A stretch of DNA of 64,000 nt from Gammaproteobacteria bacterium. GTDB taxonomy: Bacteria > Pseudomonadota > Gammaproteobacteria > JAABTG01. The position numbers and the translations under genes were made by a program. Below are positions 1,033 to 7,387 of the stretch, piece by piece (the stretch's first letter is position 1; the number at the start of each line of letters is the position of its first letter). The notes below the pieces were generated by a model. The model was not told the DNA's origin and did not search any database. It saw only the letters and a list, made by a program, of their open reading frames with translations. The stretch lies in the NCBI GenBank assembly GCA_017999615.1, contig JAGNLM010000008.1, forward strand, positions 1 to 64,000. Reading direction: 5' to 3'.

Positions 1033-1509
1033 CTAGCCGAATGACTCAATCAACCGGCGTTGCTCATTCCAGTCCAAGGGCACCTTGGCCCGCAGGATGG
1101 CTTCCAGAGATACCGCCCGGGGAAGCCGTCCTTCGTAGGCTGCCTGCACAATGTCCGGGGCGAGAAGCGCCAGCCGCAACAGATCGTTGACCGTGGAGCG
1201 ATGTATGCCCTCGCGTTCGGCAATCTCAGTACCGCTGGCCACCGTGCCGTTGTCGATCAACTGCTGCCAGTAAATGCCACGCCCCATTGCCTTGAGCAGC
1301 GGACGATCCTGCTCGGGGGTAAGCACCGGGGTATCGGTGACGGCAACCGGCTGGCTGACGCCTTCCGGCCCGACGATCACCTTCTTGATGCCGCGTTTCT
1401 TAAAGTGGAAAGGAACAAAGGTGGTGATCCGTACACCGCCGCCCTCCAGCGGGTGGCGGCGTTCGTGAGGTTTGCCGTCGCCAATGAGCTTTTTGGAAGA
1501 CCGATTCAT
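1033..1509 (-). CDS. ParB/HTH-like accessory protein of serine recombinase cassette
   Basis: 158 aa. The C-terminal half contains GTEIAEREGIHRSTVNDLLR, a helix-turn-helix of the ParB/KorB type, and ends with LDWNEQRRLIESFG. The N-terminal half is strand-rich (VRITTFVPFHFKKRGIKKV). Proteins of this pattern accompany large serine recombinases with DUF2924 partners in proteobacterial elements. The ATG at 1509 is chosen because a strong GGAGGTGG stands 4 nt before it; it overlaps the recombinase stop as TGATG. It probably binds DNA and assists or controls recombination. Confidence 0.7.
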   Translation of the reverse strand: MNRSSKKLIGDGKPHERRHPLEGGGVRITTFVPFHFKKRGIKKVIVGPEGVSQPVAVTDTPVLTPEQDRPLLKAMGRGIYWQQLIDNGTVASGTEIAEREGIHRSTVNDLLRLALLAPDIVQAAYEGRLPRAVSLEAILRAKVPLDWNEQRRLIESFG

Positions 1510-2873
1510 CACACCACCTCCATTTCCAACATCTCACCGCCAATGGTGTCCGGCCGCAGCTCACCAGCCAGTTCCTGCCAGCCGGATTCGCGCCAGACGA
1601 TGTCAACTCCGTCCGAGAGGAGCTGGACACGTTCGATCAGCAGGTTGACCAGCCGTACCTGCTCGGCAGGAAACAGTTGCTTCCAGACATCGCCGAGGCG
1701 GCGCATCGCCAGAACGGTGGTCGGTTCGTCGATCTCCGGGTACTTGTGGCGCACGGTGTTCCAGACGCCCTGGATGCTTTCGGGCGACTGAAGTGCACCG
1801 ACCAGCAGGTTTACGACCACTTCCTCGATCTGGTCGGCGGGAATCATCCCGGTGGCGCTGCTGCGGTAACCGTACCTGCTGTCCGCCTTGGGGATGTAGT
1901 AACGGTACTTCTTCCCGGAGGGCTTCTTGCTATAGGTGATGTGGTACTTGCCGCCATCCGGCCCGAACATCAGTCCGCGTAGCAGCGCGTCGGTCTTGTG
2001 CCGGGTCTGCGTCTTGCCCATACGCTGATGGGCATCCTCGCCCAGAATCGCCTGCACCCGATCCCACAACTGACGGGTGATGATCGGTTCGTGCTGTCCG
2101 GCATACACCGCCCCCTTGTGGCGAATTTCGCCCACATAGATCGGATTGCGCAGCAACTTGGAGAGATACTTTTTGTCCATCGGCGTGCCATTGCGCACAC
2201 TACCGTCCTTGAGGCGGTTGGGTTTGGTCGTGATCCCCTCCAGGGCCATCTCGCGGATGATGTCGACGATGCAGCGGGTCTCGGTGAATCGAGTGAAAAT
2301 GCGCCGGATGATCTCGGCATCTTTCTCTACGATGACAAGCCTGCGGTCTTTGATCTCATAGCCCAACGGCGTGTAACCACCCATCCACAGTCCCTTGCGC
2401 TTGCTGGCGGCGATTTTGTCGCGGATGCGCTCGCCGGTGACCTCGCGCTCGAATTGCGCGAAGGACAGTAGGATGTTGAGCATCAGCCTGCCCATCGACG
2501 TGGTGGTGTTGAACTGCTGCGTGACCGACACAAACGACACCTTGTGGCGCTCGAAAATGTCCACCAGCTTGGCAAAATCAGTCAGGCTGCGCGTCAAGCG
2601 GTCGATCTTGTAGACCACCACAATATCGATCTGGTCGGCCATGATGTCGGCCATCAGGCGTTTCAGCGCCGGGCGCTCCATGTTGCCGCCGGAGTAACCA
2701 CCATCGTCGTAATCGTCACCGACCGGCAGCCAGCCCTCAGCGCGCTGGCTCACGATATAGGCTTGGCCCGCCTCGCGCTGGGCATCAAGGGAGTTGAAGG
2801 ACTGGTCAAGGCGTTCGTCCGTCGAGACGCGGGTGTAGACGGCACAGCGTTTTTTGGTCACAACGGCGTTCAT
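1509..2873 (-). CDS. Large serine recombinase
   Basis: 454 aa. The resolvase catalytic domain is at residues ~9-155 with nucleophile Ser17 in YTRVSTDE. The conserved downstream parts VVYKIDRLTRSLTDF and FAQFEREVTGERIRDK are visible. A Recombinase domain (~165-275, KGLWMGGYTPLGYEI and PIYVGEIRHKG) follows. The region that normally forms a zinc ribbon (~295-345) has no cysteine pairs, so zinc binding looks lost, as in some relatives. A helical C-terminus completes it. The enzyme would integrate and excise the island. It overlaps both the DUF2924 gene and the ParB-like gene by a few bases (ATGA-type). Confidence 0.93.
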   Translation of the reverse strand: MNAVVTKKRCAVYTRVSTDERLDQSFNSLDAQREAGQAYIVSQRAEGWLPVGDDYDDGGYSGGNMERPALKRLMADIMADQIDIVVVYKIDRLTRSLTDFAKLVDIFERHKVSFVSVTQQFNTTTSMGRLMLNILLSFAQFEREVTGERIRDKIAASKRKGLWMGGYTPLGYEIKDRRLVIVEKDAEIIRRIFTRFTETRCIVDIIREMALEGITTKPNRLKDGSVRNGTPMDKKYLSKLLRNPIYVGEIRHKGAVYAGQHEPIITRQLWDRVQAILGEDAHQRMGKTQTRHKTDALLRGLMFGPDGGKYHITYSKKPSGKKYRYYIPKADSRYGYRSSATGMIPADQIEEVVVNLLVGALQSPESIQGVWNTVRHKYPEIDEPTTVLAMRRLGDVWKQLFPAEQVRLVNLLIERVQLLSDGVDIVWRESGWQELAGELRPDTIGGEMLEMEVV

Positions 2874-3528: not shown

Positions 3529-3814
3529 TAAATTGTTCAGACCGTCACGAAGAATATGCCTGAGCCATGGTCGGAGTATCCCGTTTGGACGCGCATCAGC
3601 AGGCATGAGCGAAACTACGACCGGAGTCTTACTGGCATCGCCGACGGCGTACTACGCTTTTGCGCAGTCTGGCGAGGATGCTGGTACCGATTTCCCGACC
3701 AACAGGCGGAACCGGTTGTTCCAACCTGTGGCGCGCCCCCAATCTCGCCGTTGGATCGGTGACACATCTCTAAACGGTAGTCAGCAGAGAGAGGTGCGTC
3801 TGGGGTCGCCTCCA
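3529..3814. other. Intergenic divergent region, no gene seen
   Basis: The 339-bp gap between the minus-strand recombinase cassette and the plus-strand HTH gene begins here and has no convincing ORF on either strand. Base composition is lower in GC than the core chromosome. The plus-strand promoter and operator occupy its right end (3815-3843). I could not identify a clear minus-strand promoter. Confidence 0.5.
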
Positions 3815-3843
3815 TTGACCTGATGTTTATCAGGTCATATATT
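3815..3843 (+). promoter_or_regulatory. Promoter with embedded perfect palindrome (operator)
   Basis: A sigma70-type promoter: TTGACC (3815-3820), 17-bp spacer, TATATT (3838-3843). The spacer and the -35 contain TGACCTGAT-GTTT-ATCAGGTCA, a perfect 9-bp inverted repeat at 3816-3837. Any protein bound there would block RNA polymerase. The first gene downstream encodes a small winged-helix protein, so autorepression is the natural inference. The palindrome is not the canonical LexA CTGT-N8-ACAG box. Confidence 0.75.
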
Positions 3844-3867
3844 GCACAATGGGCGAGGAGCAATGCC

Positions 3868-4101
3868 ATGAGCAAAAAAAAGGTCGTGAGCATTACGCAG
3901 CCGCAGGCAAGAACGCTAAACGTCATCTGCCAAATCCTAGACAGCACGGGCCTGCCGCCCACCGTCAAGGAATTAGCCGAGGCGTTGGGGATTAGTCATG
4001 CCAGCGCGCATGAACAGATCAGCCAGCTGGTACGCAAGGGGTATTTGAAGAAAGAAGAAAAAAAGGCACGGAGCATCGTCGTCATCAAGCGCAACGAATG
4101 A
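3868..4101 (+). CDS. LexA-type winged-helix repressor-like protein
   Basis: 77 aa. It resembles the DNA-binding domain of LexA: TQPQARTLNVICQILDSTGL, then PPTVKELAEALGISHASAHE as the helix-turn-helix, then a wing ending in RSIVVIKRN. The Ser/Lys protease domain of LexA is absent, so it cannot self-cleave like LexA. The ATG at 3868 follows GGAG by a normal distance; an in-frame upstream ATG at 3823 would lie inside the promoter and is rejected. It sits 35 bp ahead of the next gene and probably represses its own promoter (operator 3816-3837) and hence the module. Confidence 0.75.
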   Translation: MSKKKVVSITQPQARTLNVICQILDSTGLPPTVKELAEALGISHASAHEQISQLVRKGYLKKEEKKARSIVVIKRNE

Positions 4102-4136
4102 TGGCAATGCACTGATCTCTACAAGGGGAGTTCTGG

Positions 4137-4925
4137 ATGGGGCATGTTCGGCTCGGGGTACTGCCAAGAACGAAGGCGTGGAAGGAGGTCGTCGAACTGA
4201 TCGCCGCCGGTGCTGACGTCTCCCAGATCGCCAATGCGACCATCACGGCGGCGGAAAAGGCCTTCTCCTTCGTGATGGACGATGTGGGCTACACCGAGGC
4301 TGTCTGGTTGATGACACAGATGGCGATTGCTGCCAAGAAACCGGACATCAACCAGCATCTCGCGGTAGCGGGCATCCATCTGCCTGCCGACCCCTCCCTC
4401 ATCGATGTAACCACGGCGATCACGGAGGCCCTAGATCGGCGGGTGGAGAGCAATGGCCAGCGCTCCGACCTCGGCGGCCTCGCCAACCGGGCTATCGTCG
4501 GTGCTGTAAACGATGTCCTCGCCCCCAAGTTGCAATCACTTTTTTCGTCCGATCCGGACACGATGCGGGCCGCCCTCGCGGACTTGGGAAAGCCGAAGGA
4601 GTTCGGCGAATTTTCCCGACGCTTCTTTGCCCGACTGGCCAATGAGGCGCTGCAGTATTTCCTGAGCAAGGTCGTCAACACCCAGCTTGGCGATGGAATG
4701 CGCTTTGCCACGATGAATCAGTCCGCCCAGTTCAATGCGGCGCTGGAAACGCATACCCGAGAGGCGTCGGTCATCGTCGAGAAGTTTTCAAGCGAGTGGT
4801 TCTCAAAGCACCGGTTTCATGAGGGCGGTGATATTTCCAGAAAATCGTCGGACGGATTCGCAGGCTATGCGCTGAAAAAGATGAAGGACGAGTTGAAAGC
4901 AGGGGCGCGCAGCGATGCAAAGTAA
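4137..4925 (+). CDS. Met-Gly-starting protein of unknown family, partner of QueC-like enzyme
   Basis: 262 aa, soluble, no signal peptide or membrane segment, family not recognised. It begins MGHVRLGVLPRTKAWKEVVE and has a predicted mostly helical body. A ribosome-binding site AAGGGGAG lies 8 nt before the ATG. Its end overlaps the QueC-like gene by 11 bp, so the two products are made together. In Qat defence the QueC-like QatC is paired with QatB, which also begins Met-Gly. Published work on QueC-like enzymes in defence reports attachment of a deazaguanine to a partner protein's N-terminus. By analogy this protein may be the substrate; that is inference only. Confidence 0.65.
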   Translation: MGHVRLGVLPRTKAWKEVVELIAAGADVSQIANATITAAEKAFSFVMDDVGYTEAVWLMTQMAIAAKKPDINQHLAVAGIHLPADPSLIDVTTAITEALDRRVESNGQRSDLGGLANRAIVGAVNDVLAPKLQSLFSSDPDTMRAALADLGKPKEFGEFSRRFFARLANEALQYFLSKVVNTQLGDGMRFATMNQSAQFNAALETHTREASVIVEKFSSEWFSKHRFHEGGDISRKSSDGFAGYALKKMKDELKAGARSDAK

Positions 4926-7053
4926 ACGATACGTTCTGTGCGGCAACGCGTCCGCCAAAGGCATCAGCGAAGATCCTTCGCGCGATCTGCGGCTGCGGCT
5001 CTCGGGCAAGGCCGGGCACGGCAACATCACCCTGCGGATCGAGGATGTCCACACCAAAATGTTTCGTGGCGTGCCACCGCTGTTCCATGACCTGCTGGAG
5101 ATCGCCACCTACGTCTACAGCGCCGATCAGGTGGTCAGACGAGGCGCGGACGATGTCGACACCTTTGGTGATGGGTGGCGGCGCGACCTGCACTTTGTGG
5201 TACCGGTGCGCAATCCTGACTTCTGGAACAGCGCGGAGGTACAGGAGACGCTGTGCTCGACGCTCAGCTTCCTGTCCGACGACCAGTACCAGTTTGATTT
5301 CGTCAAACTCGACCAGGATCATCAGTTCCAGGAGTACCTCGAGTTCAACGACACCCAGCATATATACGGGATGCCGGAGCAGGTGGTGATGTTCTCCGGC
5401 GGCCTGGATTCTTTGGCGGGAGCCATCGATGAGGTTGTAAACCAGAAGCGGCGCGTGCTCCTGGTCACCCACAAGTCAACCTCCAAGCTCAACAAACGTC
5501 ACCGCACCCTGGAAGAGATGCTGGCCCAGAAAGCGGGCGACAACGTGCCGCACCGCATTACCGTTCGGGTCCACAAGACCAAAGAGCTGAACCACGAGTA
5601 CACCCAGCGCAGCCGGTCATTCCTGTATGTCTCCATCGGCGCGACGATTGCCCGGATGCTCAACCTCAAGAGCGTGCGCTTCTACGAGAACGGCGTGATC
5701 AGCCTGAACCTGCCGGTGTGCGCCCAAGTGGTCGGTGGCCGCGCAACCCGGACGACGCATCCCAGGGTGATGAGGGGCTTCCAGGACATCGTCTCGCTGG
5801 TAGCGGGCGAGCCTTTCACCATCGAGAACCCGTACATCTGGAAAACCAAGGCTGACGTCGTCAAGGTCATCACGGATGCTGGTTGCCACGACCTGATCAA
5901 GCATTCGATGACCTGCACCCACACCTGGGAGATGACGAACCAGCACACCCACTGCGGGGGCTGCTCGCAATGCATCGACCGTCGATTCGCAGTTCTCGCC
6001 GCCAAGGCTGATCAACACGATCCGACCGAACACTACAAGTTCGACGTGTTCACCCAGAGCCGTGATGCCCAAGATCAGAAGAAGAACGTGGACAAGATCA
6101 TGGCCGCAGCCTATCTGGAGCGGGCCAATCAGGTGAATGGCCTCACGGACGTGGCGCAGTTCGTCAGCAGTTACCCCGACGTGGGCCGGGTCTTTAAGTA
6201 TCTGAACTACAACAGCGCCGGGCAGGCAGCGCAGCGGGTGTTCGATCTCTACAAGCGGCACGCCAATGAGGTGATGGGGGCATTGGATGAGCTGCTTAGT
6301 CGTCACAGCAAGGAGATTCGGGAGCGGACGCTTCCCGGAGATTGCCTGCTTCAAACGGCTTATCAGGCGAACTCCGTGATCTCAATGCCCGCCGTGGTGT
6401 CGGCAGAAAAGCTGCCGGACAACATTTTCCGAAAGCGCGGTGGTGTCTGGGAGGCACGGTTCCAAGGTCGGGGACGACACACCATCCTGATCCAGGGCGT
6501 GGACAAGGGGGCTGAGTACATCAACCTGTTGCTGGCGTTCCCGGATCGTGAAACCTCGGTTTTTGAAATCGTCTGCGGCAGCGAAATCGGGGCCGTTGAA
6601 TCGGCAGCGAACACCGGGTTGGATCACGATGACATCGAAGAGGGGTATCAAGTGTCTAACGGCGTGCCGCTGGGGGATGCTGGCGTGGTGGCGGACAGAA
6701 AAGCGATCCAGCAGTACCGTGGCAGATACAACGATCTGATCAGTGAAAAGGCGGATGCGGAGGCAGACGGTGACCACGAGCGGCTTGAAGAAATTCAAAT
6801 CGAAATGGCTCAACTTGTGGCTGCTGTGACGGGGGCACAGGGAAAGGGGGGCAAGCTACGCAGGGTCGCTGACAGGAGAAAGAACGTCCGGGACGCCTTC
6901 CGCAACGCGGTTGACCGAGCCATCAAGCAAATCGAGAAGTACGACAAGCCGCTGGCTGAGCACCTGAAAGCCAGTATCAAGCACGGCAACGAGGTGGTCT
7001 ACCGGCCGGAAATGTCGATCACTTGGGACGTCCGTCCAATCGCGAACACCTAG
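4915..7053 (+). CDS. QatC/QueC-like ATP-pyrophosphatase with extra C-terminal domain
   Basis: 712 aa, about three times the size of QueC. Residues ~1-155 form an N-terminal domain (HDLLEIATYVYSADQVVRRG) of the kind seen in QatC. Then comes the PP-loop SGGLDS at 161-166 and the zinc site Cys334, Cys347, Cys350, Cys353 (C-x12-C-x2-C-x2-C). So the ATP- and zinc-binding residues of 7-cyano-7-deazaguanine synthase are kept. Residues ~504-707 add a domain (FRKRGGVWEARFQGRG to YRPEMSITWDV) that I associate with C-termini of large bacterial signalling and transcription regulators. No other queuosine genes are near, so a role in defence or protein modification is more likely than tRNA modification. 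Confidence 0.75.
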   Translation: MQSKRYVLCGNASAKGISEDPSRDLRLRLSGKAGHGNITLRIEDVHTKMFRGVPPLFHDLLEIATYVYSADQVVRRGADDVDTFGDGWRRDLHFVVPVRNPDFWNSAEVQETLCSTLSFLSDDQYQFDFVKLDQDHQFQEYLEFNDTQHIYGMPEQVVMFSGGLDSLAGAIDEVVNQKRRVLLVTHKSTSKLNKRHRTLEEMLAQKAGDNVPHRITVRVHKTKELNHEYTQRSRSFLYVSIGATIARMLNLKSVRFYENGVISLNLPVCAQVVGGRATRTTHPRVMRGFQDIVSLVAGEPFTIENPYIWKTKADVVKVITDAGCHDLIKHSMTCTHTWEMTNQHTHCGGCSQCIDRRFAVLAAKADQHDPTEHYKFDVFTQSRDAQDQKKNVDKIMAAAYLERANQVNGLTDVAQFVSSYPDVGRVFKYLNYNSAGQAAQRVFDLYKRHANEVMGALDELLSRHSKEIRERTLPGDCLLQTAYQANSVISMPAVVSAEKLPDNIFRKRGGVWEARFQGRGRHTILIQGVDKGAEYINLLLAFPDRETSVFEIVCGSEIGAVESAANTGLDHDDIEEGYQVSNGVPLGDAGVVADRKAIQQYRGRYNDLISEKADAEADGDHERLEEIQIEMAQLVAAVTGAQGKGGKLRRVADRRKNVRDAFRNAVDRAIKQIEKYDKPLAEHLKASIKHGNEVVYRPEMSITWDVRPIANT

Positions 7054-7311: not shown

Positions 7312-7387
<76 letters not shown>

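Follow-up and report, generated by a model that had tools for sequence, protein, structure and literature searches.

The window, a stretch of 64,000 nucleotides from a gammaproteobacterium (GenBank assembly GCA_017999615.1, contig JAGNLM010000008.1, positions 1 to 64,000 of the forward strand), carries at one end of a prophage-like element two genes, for a protein of 262 residues and an enzyme of 712 residues, which are a branch of the QatB-QatC (QatBC) lineage with its own clade, its own N-terminal motif and a variable C-terminal tail, here named MGH-type QatBC. In an earlier note on this DNA, made from the sequence alone, the two genes and a preceding helix-turn-helix (HTH) gene had been read as an undescribed module belonging neither to Qat nor to the cyclic oligonucleotide-based antiphage signalling systems (CBASS). 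The features of the pair are:

4137-4925, plus strand: QatB-like protein, 262 residues, N-terminus MGHVRLGVLPRTKAW (AlphaFold2 model and structural match)
4137-4181, plus strand: N-terminal motif MGHxRLGxLPx(T/S)xxW, the presumed modified tail, with Gly2 exposed once Met is removed
4915-7053, plus strand: QatC-like enzyme of 712 residues, extended by an additional C-terminal domain (NCBIfam QatC, 1e-67; PADLOC QatC, 1.8e-60)
5395-5412, plus strand: SGGLDS, ATP pyrophosphate-binding loop (PP-loop), residues 161-166
5746-5763, plus strand: TRTTHP, residues 278-283, with the QatC-type threonine pair
5914-5973, plus strand: zinc cysteines C334, C347, C350 and C353
6364-7050, plus strand: additional domain at the C-terminus (residues 484-712), made up of strands, helices and coiled coil; it lies beyond the QatC fold match and is absent from the QatC crystal structure

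The QatC-like Enzyme

The 712-residue enzyme is homologous to QatC, its predicted fold included. Residues 58-399 match QatC (NCBIfam, PADLOC) and the protein also matches QueC, with 228.8 bits on the QatC equivalog NF041925 (cut-off 280) and 30.2 bits on the QueC equivalog (cut-off 150.3), and the sequence matches that of the solved QatC at 7.7e-31. In the AlphaFold model (mean predicted local distance difference test (pLDDT) of 80), residues 3-482 align with residues 2-456 of QatC (9y02 chain B) with Z = 31.4 over 408 residues, compared with Z = 13.5 for QueC and Z = 13.1 for Cap9, and extensions are present N- and C-terminally of the QueC core as in QatC.

The active site was compared across 52 relatives and 10 canonical QatC sequences. 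The PP-loop and the zinc cysteines of QueC, which the earlier note had pointed out, were both found in place: in SGGLDS five of the six residues are invariant, with position 164 variable, and the four cysteines are invariant throughout. The motifs RxR, ExG, HP and PxxxxTK are likewise conserved. In QatC a Thr pair stands where QueC and Cap9 have the Tyr/Asp of their nucleobase pocket (PMC13279940). At the corresponding positions of the relatives, Thr278 is present in 46 of 52 (the others have Ser) and Thr280 in 51 of 52; none of the 52 has anything but Thr or Ser at either position, and both are Thr in 10 of 10 canonical QatC.

This bears on the possibility that the enzyme is a QueC, whether ordinary or auxiliary, that supplies preQ0 for the modification of tRNA or phage DNA. 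Such a role would fit the PF06508 domain and the fact that QueC-like genes are carried by phages (PHROG 1550), but Thr replaces the QueC-specific Tyr/Asp, the score on the QueC equivalog is far below the cut-off, the host has its own QueC elsewhere (G000 C18), neither queD nor queE adjoins the pair, and the enzyme is constantly paired with a protein of QatB fold. The queuosine-enzyme reading was rejected on these grounds and is extremely improbable. The homologues do not sit in queuosine operons, the host QueC being a separate gene, which is what the earlier note's idea of a system had called for.

The QatB-like Protein

For the 262-residue protein no match was found in Pfam, NCBIfam, PADLOC or PHROGs, and a search of its sequence against the PDB gave noise only. 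None of the curated families searched covers it, and annotation by these libraries would therefore miss it. The AlphaFold2 model, built with 21 relatives (pLDDT 84; predicted template modelling score (pTM) 0.85), has as its top structural match the QatB crystal structure (9y01 chain A) with Z = 12.2, 207 of 215 residues aligned, a root-mean-square deviation of 3.8 and 7% identity, the next unrelated structure following at Z = 5.6. This match surfaced only when Foldseek's lower-ranked chains were re-aligned. The protein is thus predicted to have the QatB fold, and its gene occupies the qatB position beside the QatC-like gene. That it belongs to no recognised family, as had been stated before, is correct at the level of sequence but not of fold.

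The Met-Gly start seen earlier is general: all 72 representatives have Gly2 and 71 of them Trp15, values biased upward because part of the set was found with the motif MGHxRLG, although the motif is also present in members found by whole-protein search (Leptospira, G334, G344, G681, G717). In published QatB, Gly2 and the conserved Pro and Trp of the N-terminal tail are required for defence, and defence is lost in QatB G2D and in QatC active-site mutants (PMC13279940). Gly2 is kept, yet the motif is MGHxRLG instead of MGTS and the tail is short.

An orphan QatB-like gene (L070 6001-6765), whose QatC-like gene is lost, starts with MD rather than MG, the Gly2 to Asp change being the one (G2D) that abolishes QatB function in the published system. 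The 91% identical L152 has MG and a QatC-like gene.

Pairing, Spread, and Phylogeny

Scans of viral contigs and genome contigs yielded 65 and 79 loci, respectively; for the genome scan an alignment of 26 sequences was too varied, one of 10 was used instead, and the best 80 of 124 were retained. None of 50,697 annotated phage records gave a match, in spite of the 65 loci in viral contigs. The weak class-wide matches in G260 and G341 were judged by eye to be due to chance.

After clustering at 90%, the QatC-like gene lies directly downstream of the QatB-like gene in 77 of 78 clusters (L117 is the exception). The association is therefore not a matter of chance, and the recurrent pairing that the earlier note had predicted is indeed found. 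The two genes overlap in nearly all relatives; in the window the overlap is 11 bp, as reported before and confirmed by the gene calls.

Contig titles name proteobacteria, Desulfobacterota, Planctomycetota, Verrucomicrobia, Acidobacteria, Bacteroidales, and others, to which Leptospira is to be added. In an even sample of 398 genomes from the window's phylum, the MGH-type pair is present in 3 (the window's own genome included, a weak broken match left out) and canonical QatC above cut-off in 8. In the QatC tree the canonical QatC form a bipartition with support 1.0 and the MGH-type enzymes a clade with support 0.948. The latter includes L007, where the QatC-like gene follows an IS3 element and has no QatB-like partner.

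A second two-gene type with a QatC-like enzyme was seen in L189 (5841-6410 and 4459-5844, minus strand), L190 and L191. Its partner has about 190 residues and the N-terminus MSDGP, which in L190 and L191 is preceded by an in-frame start; in its enzyme the loop is degenerate, reading S(D/E)G(L/M)DS, and Asp/Arg occupy the positions of Thr278/Thr280. Near these three pairs QatA and QatD were searched for and neither was found.

The C-terminal Tail of the Enzyme

Split by BLAST only, the C-terminal tails of the QatC-like enzymes fall into the window type (n = 86), a second group (n = 32) and several small groups. Parsimony over these classes gives 12 changes, which was not used to count swaps because there are about as many classes as changes and 12 is therefore near the minimum. 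The second group resembles response-regulator winged helices (hhalign 89%, 2.1e-6), and two tails score above the Pfam cut-off, that of L061 as a Trans_reg_C winged helix (2.8e-9) and that of the Leptospira member as a DpnII-MboI nuclease (1.2e-9). The window-type tail also ends a TPR protein (L004) and matches actinobacterial plasmid sequences, one of them annotated as AAA ATPase; against the PDB its profile finds mostly coiled-coil and designed proteins. The tail may supply a DNA-directed function, which is suggested more strongly by the second group than by the window's own tail type.

The nuclease-tailed enzyme belongs to a pair on a Leptospira noguchii plasmid (L006 8001-10645). In L015 (9520) an in-frame TAG interrupts the QatC-like gene right after ILALY, and the frame runs on into a tail of the L057/L062 type.

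Tails of this kind could also mean that the pair regulates transcription in the prophage or host, as an enzyme with a DNA-binding tail that is switched through modification of the QatB-like protein; it would then serve, for example, superinfection immunity or lysogeny control and not be a defence effector. Many tails are indeed of the winged-helix type, the window's tail recurs on the TPR and actinobacterial proteins just mentioned, and the module lies at the prophage end beside an integrase. A regulator is nevertheless unlikely, since the Leptospira member has a nuclease tail, the pair stays constant while the tails differ, and the related QatBC and Cap9 act in defence (PMC13279940).

Proposed Function and Mechanism

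It has been shown that QatB and QatC alone defend Escherichia coli and suffice against phage lambda, QatA and QatD broadening the phage range of QatABCD (PMC13279940). We consider it probable that MGH-type QatBC is likewise a self-contained immunity module, in which the glycine of the QatB-like N-terminus is modified by the QatC-like enzyme, the tail is DNA-directed and the prophage-like element thereby carries a phage defence. The phage defence, the QatB-QatC complex, the glycine modification and its chemistry would all be by analogy with the published systems. The QatB-like and QatC-like proteins would presumably form a complex; after removal of Met the N-terminal glycine would enter the active site of the QatC-like enzyme; ATP would there activate a carboxylate, which would then be joined to the glycine, as Cap9 does with its CD-NTase partner; and the group joined would be one other than 7-carboxy-7-deazaguanine. 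The C-terminal tail would substitute for the DNA-directed role ascribed to QatA (DNA-binding NTPase) and QatD (TatD nuclease), so that the pair could work alone.

Several points weigh against this. Foldseek by itself gave no significant QatB match for the 262-residue model, and helical proteins can attain a Z near 13 through a common arrangement, against the Z of 12.2 found here; the homology to QatB therefore leans on the gap to the next structure, on the pairing and on a match that spans the full length. In the QatB-like protein the N-terminal tail has about 12 residues before helix 1, compared with 30-90 disordered residues in QatB (PMC13279940), which makes its reach into the active site uncertain. 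The window's C-terminal tail has a weak likeness to a response-regulator winged helix (hhalign 7.7%), and to the second tail type it scores 0.2%; a common winged-helix origin of all tails is for this reason not claimed. Defence genes beside the pair are scattered. And the search for qatA (KAP ATPase) and qatD (TatD nuclease) covered flanks of up to 9 kb. Within these flanks the result favours a pair that works alone: both genes were found in 0 of 152 loci (redundant ones included), and in eight control loci whose QatC is above cut-off the identical search recovered QatA in all 8 and QatD in 7.

The absence of QatA and QatD nearby agrees with the earlier note. It could also mean an incomplete QatABCD, with QatA and QatD acting from elsewhere in the genome, for which their effect on phage range and the limitation of the search to the flanks can be cited. 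Yet none was found in 152 loci from many phyla, and the pair has its own clade and its own tail domains, which indicates a stable QatBC-only design and leaves the incomplete system with very little probability. The self-contained pair also accords in part with the "compact two-gene immunity or protein-modification system" of the earlier note: the recurrent two-gene module is observed, and immunity and modification are inferred from work on QatBC and Cap9.

Is 7-Carboxy-7-deazaguanine the Co-substrate?

QueC is above cut-off in 28 of 40 carrier genomes; in the phylum sample the figure is 336 of 398. Carriers are thus not richer in QueC (Fisher p = 0.027 in the direction of fewer, with mixed taxa). 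The 12 QueC-less carriers were tested for QueD and QueE beside seven pathway-positive genomes, which score. In 8 of the 40 carriers, all without QueC (G681, G752, G771, G772, G775, G776, G779, G782), QueD and QueE (TIGR04508) were also undetected, and with TIGR04349 (QueE) these genomes gave nothing or only weak radical-SAM matches; it should be noted that absence by hidden Markov model (HMM) in draft genomes is not proof, that salvage is possible and that recently acquired genes may be idle. The pair consists of two full-length frames in seven of the eight, the QatC-like gene being broken in L155 (G775). QueC and QueE were also undetected in G454, which has canonical QatC, and in G488, where qatC is interrupted by a stop.

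The eight carriers argue against host-made 7-carboxy-7-deazaguanine as obligate co-substrate, a role that is hard to square with them, and together with the Thr pair they suggest that the group joined is a different one. Canonical QatC did not complement an E. coli queC mutant (PMC13329287). Tentatively, and with a good deal less confidence than the immunity module itself, we propose that a stand-alone QatBC lineage with a swappable DNA-directed QatC domain, placing a carboxylate other than a 7-deazaguanine on the QatB glycine, may represent a second protein N-terminal conjugation chemistry in bacterial immunity.

The chemistry of QatC and how modification of QatB stops phages have been named as open questions (PMC13279940). 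The MGH-type branch, which is naturally without QatA and QatD, isolates the QatBC chemistry in dozens of diverse pairs; it hints that the tail is an exchangeable part with a DNA-directed role; and in the carriers without detectable QueC, QueD and QueE the QatB N-terminus could reveal whether deazaguanine is needed.

The Element and the HTH Gene

The start of the window is the contig end and lies inside the prophage-like element, of which the HTH gene and the pair form one end. The other features are:

3815-3843, plus strand: sigma-70-type promoter (-35 TTGACC 3815-3820, 17-bp spacer, -10 TATATT 3838-3843)
3816-3837, plus strand: presumed operator, a perfect 9-bp inverted repeat TGACCTGAT-GTTT-ATCAGGTCA overlapping the promoter
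3868-4101, plus strand: LexA-type winged-helix (HTH) protein, 77 residues (Pfam LexA_DNA_bind, 4.4e-14)
1509-2873, minus strand: serine integrase of the element (Pfam Resolvase, 6.2e-39; PHROG integrase, 9.8e-109)
7312-7387, minus strand: tRNA-Ala(CGC), likely attachment site (ARAGORN, Rfam)

A palindrome arm as long as that of the operator occurred in 2 of 2000 shuffles, and dozens of relatives with different flanking DNA have approximately the same 29 bases ahead of the HTH gene. An in-frame ATG at 3823, upstream of the HTH start, falls within the operator. LexA consists of a DNA-binding and a self-cleaving protease domain, whereas the HTH protein has the first only, being too short for the second, and is below the LexA equivalog cut-off (48.7 vs 110.95 bits). 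It would presumably repress its own operon via the conserved operator. An operator-bearing promoter ahead of three plus-strand genes on a mobile island, the first for a LexA-type protein without protease, had been described before, and these results uphold it.

With an HTH gene and two overlapping genes under one operator, one could think of prophage addiction, the LexA-type protein repressing or neutralising a toxic QatBC pair. The HTH gene is immediately 5' of the pair in 8 of 78 clusters, those of the close relatives, and is therefore not a required antitoxin; no toxin fold is present except the nuclease tail in one member. The toxin-antitoxin reading was accordingly rejected as improbable.

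To the left of the pair are the serine integrase, DUF2924 and phage gene families. In relatives the matching element end adjoins a tRNA-Ala(CGC) or transfer-messenger RNA (tmRNA) gene, and the element in the window therefore probably integrates at tRNA-Ala. Such ends were seen in L088, L092, L093, L094, L098 and L104, which suggests a single integrase reading the Ala-type 3' end common to tRNA-Ala(CGC) and tmRNA. In relatives DUF2924 and the HTH gene are separated by a thermonuclease-like gene (L086 7920-8642); in the window only 183 bases lie there (3620-3803). Across loci most neighbours of the pair code for recombinases, integrases or phage replication proteins; one copy adjoins an HmaA-like helicase (L015). 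The pair is thus located on mobile elements, as had been seen earlier, most often within a prophage or an integrative element; the enrichment in defence islands that had been expected is not claimed.

Comparison with Known Systems

With QueC the enzyme shares the Rossmann core, SGGxDS and the zinc cysteines; it differs in the replaced substrate residues, the N- and C-terminal extensions, the protein partner and the lack of queuosine neighbours. With Cap9 and CD-NTase of type IV CBASS the pair has in common the QueC fold, the ATP site and a glycine at the N-terminus of the protein presumed to be the substrate. Cap9 retains the Tyr/Asp pocket for the nucleobase, has about 185 residues and acts on a partner of unrelated fold (PMC13279940, PMC13329287), whereas the enzyme in the window has Thr278/Thr280 and a partner predicted to have the QatB fold; as to a CD-NTase, the flanks were scanned in part with PADLOC.

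The likeness to QatABCD (QatB-QatC core; PDB 9y01, 9y02, 9vlk) extends to both folds, the overlapping B-then-C gene order, the Thr pair and active site, the zinc site and the Met-Gly start of the partner. The MGH-type loci differ in having no qatA or qatD nearby, in forming a separate clade and, in close relatives, in a LexA-type regulator; the QatB-like protein differs from QatB in MGHxRLG instead of MGTS, in a much shorter tail and in an identity of about 7%, and the QatC-like enzyme from QatC in about 230 extra C-terminal residues. The earlier verdict that the module is neither Qat nor CBASS is therefore right in that the pair is not a four-gene QatABCD and lacks the Tyr/Asp pocket of Cap9, but the QatB and QatC folds make it a branch of the Qat lineage, and the two-gene principle taken to be undescribed had already been published with QatB and QatC alone defending against some phages (PMC13279940).

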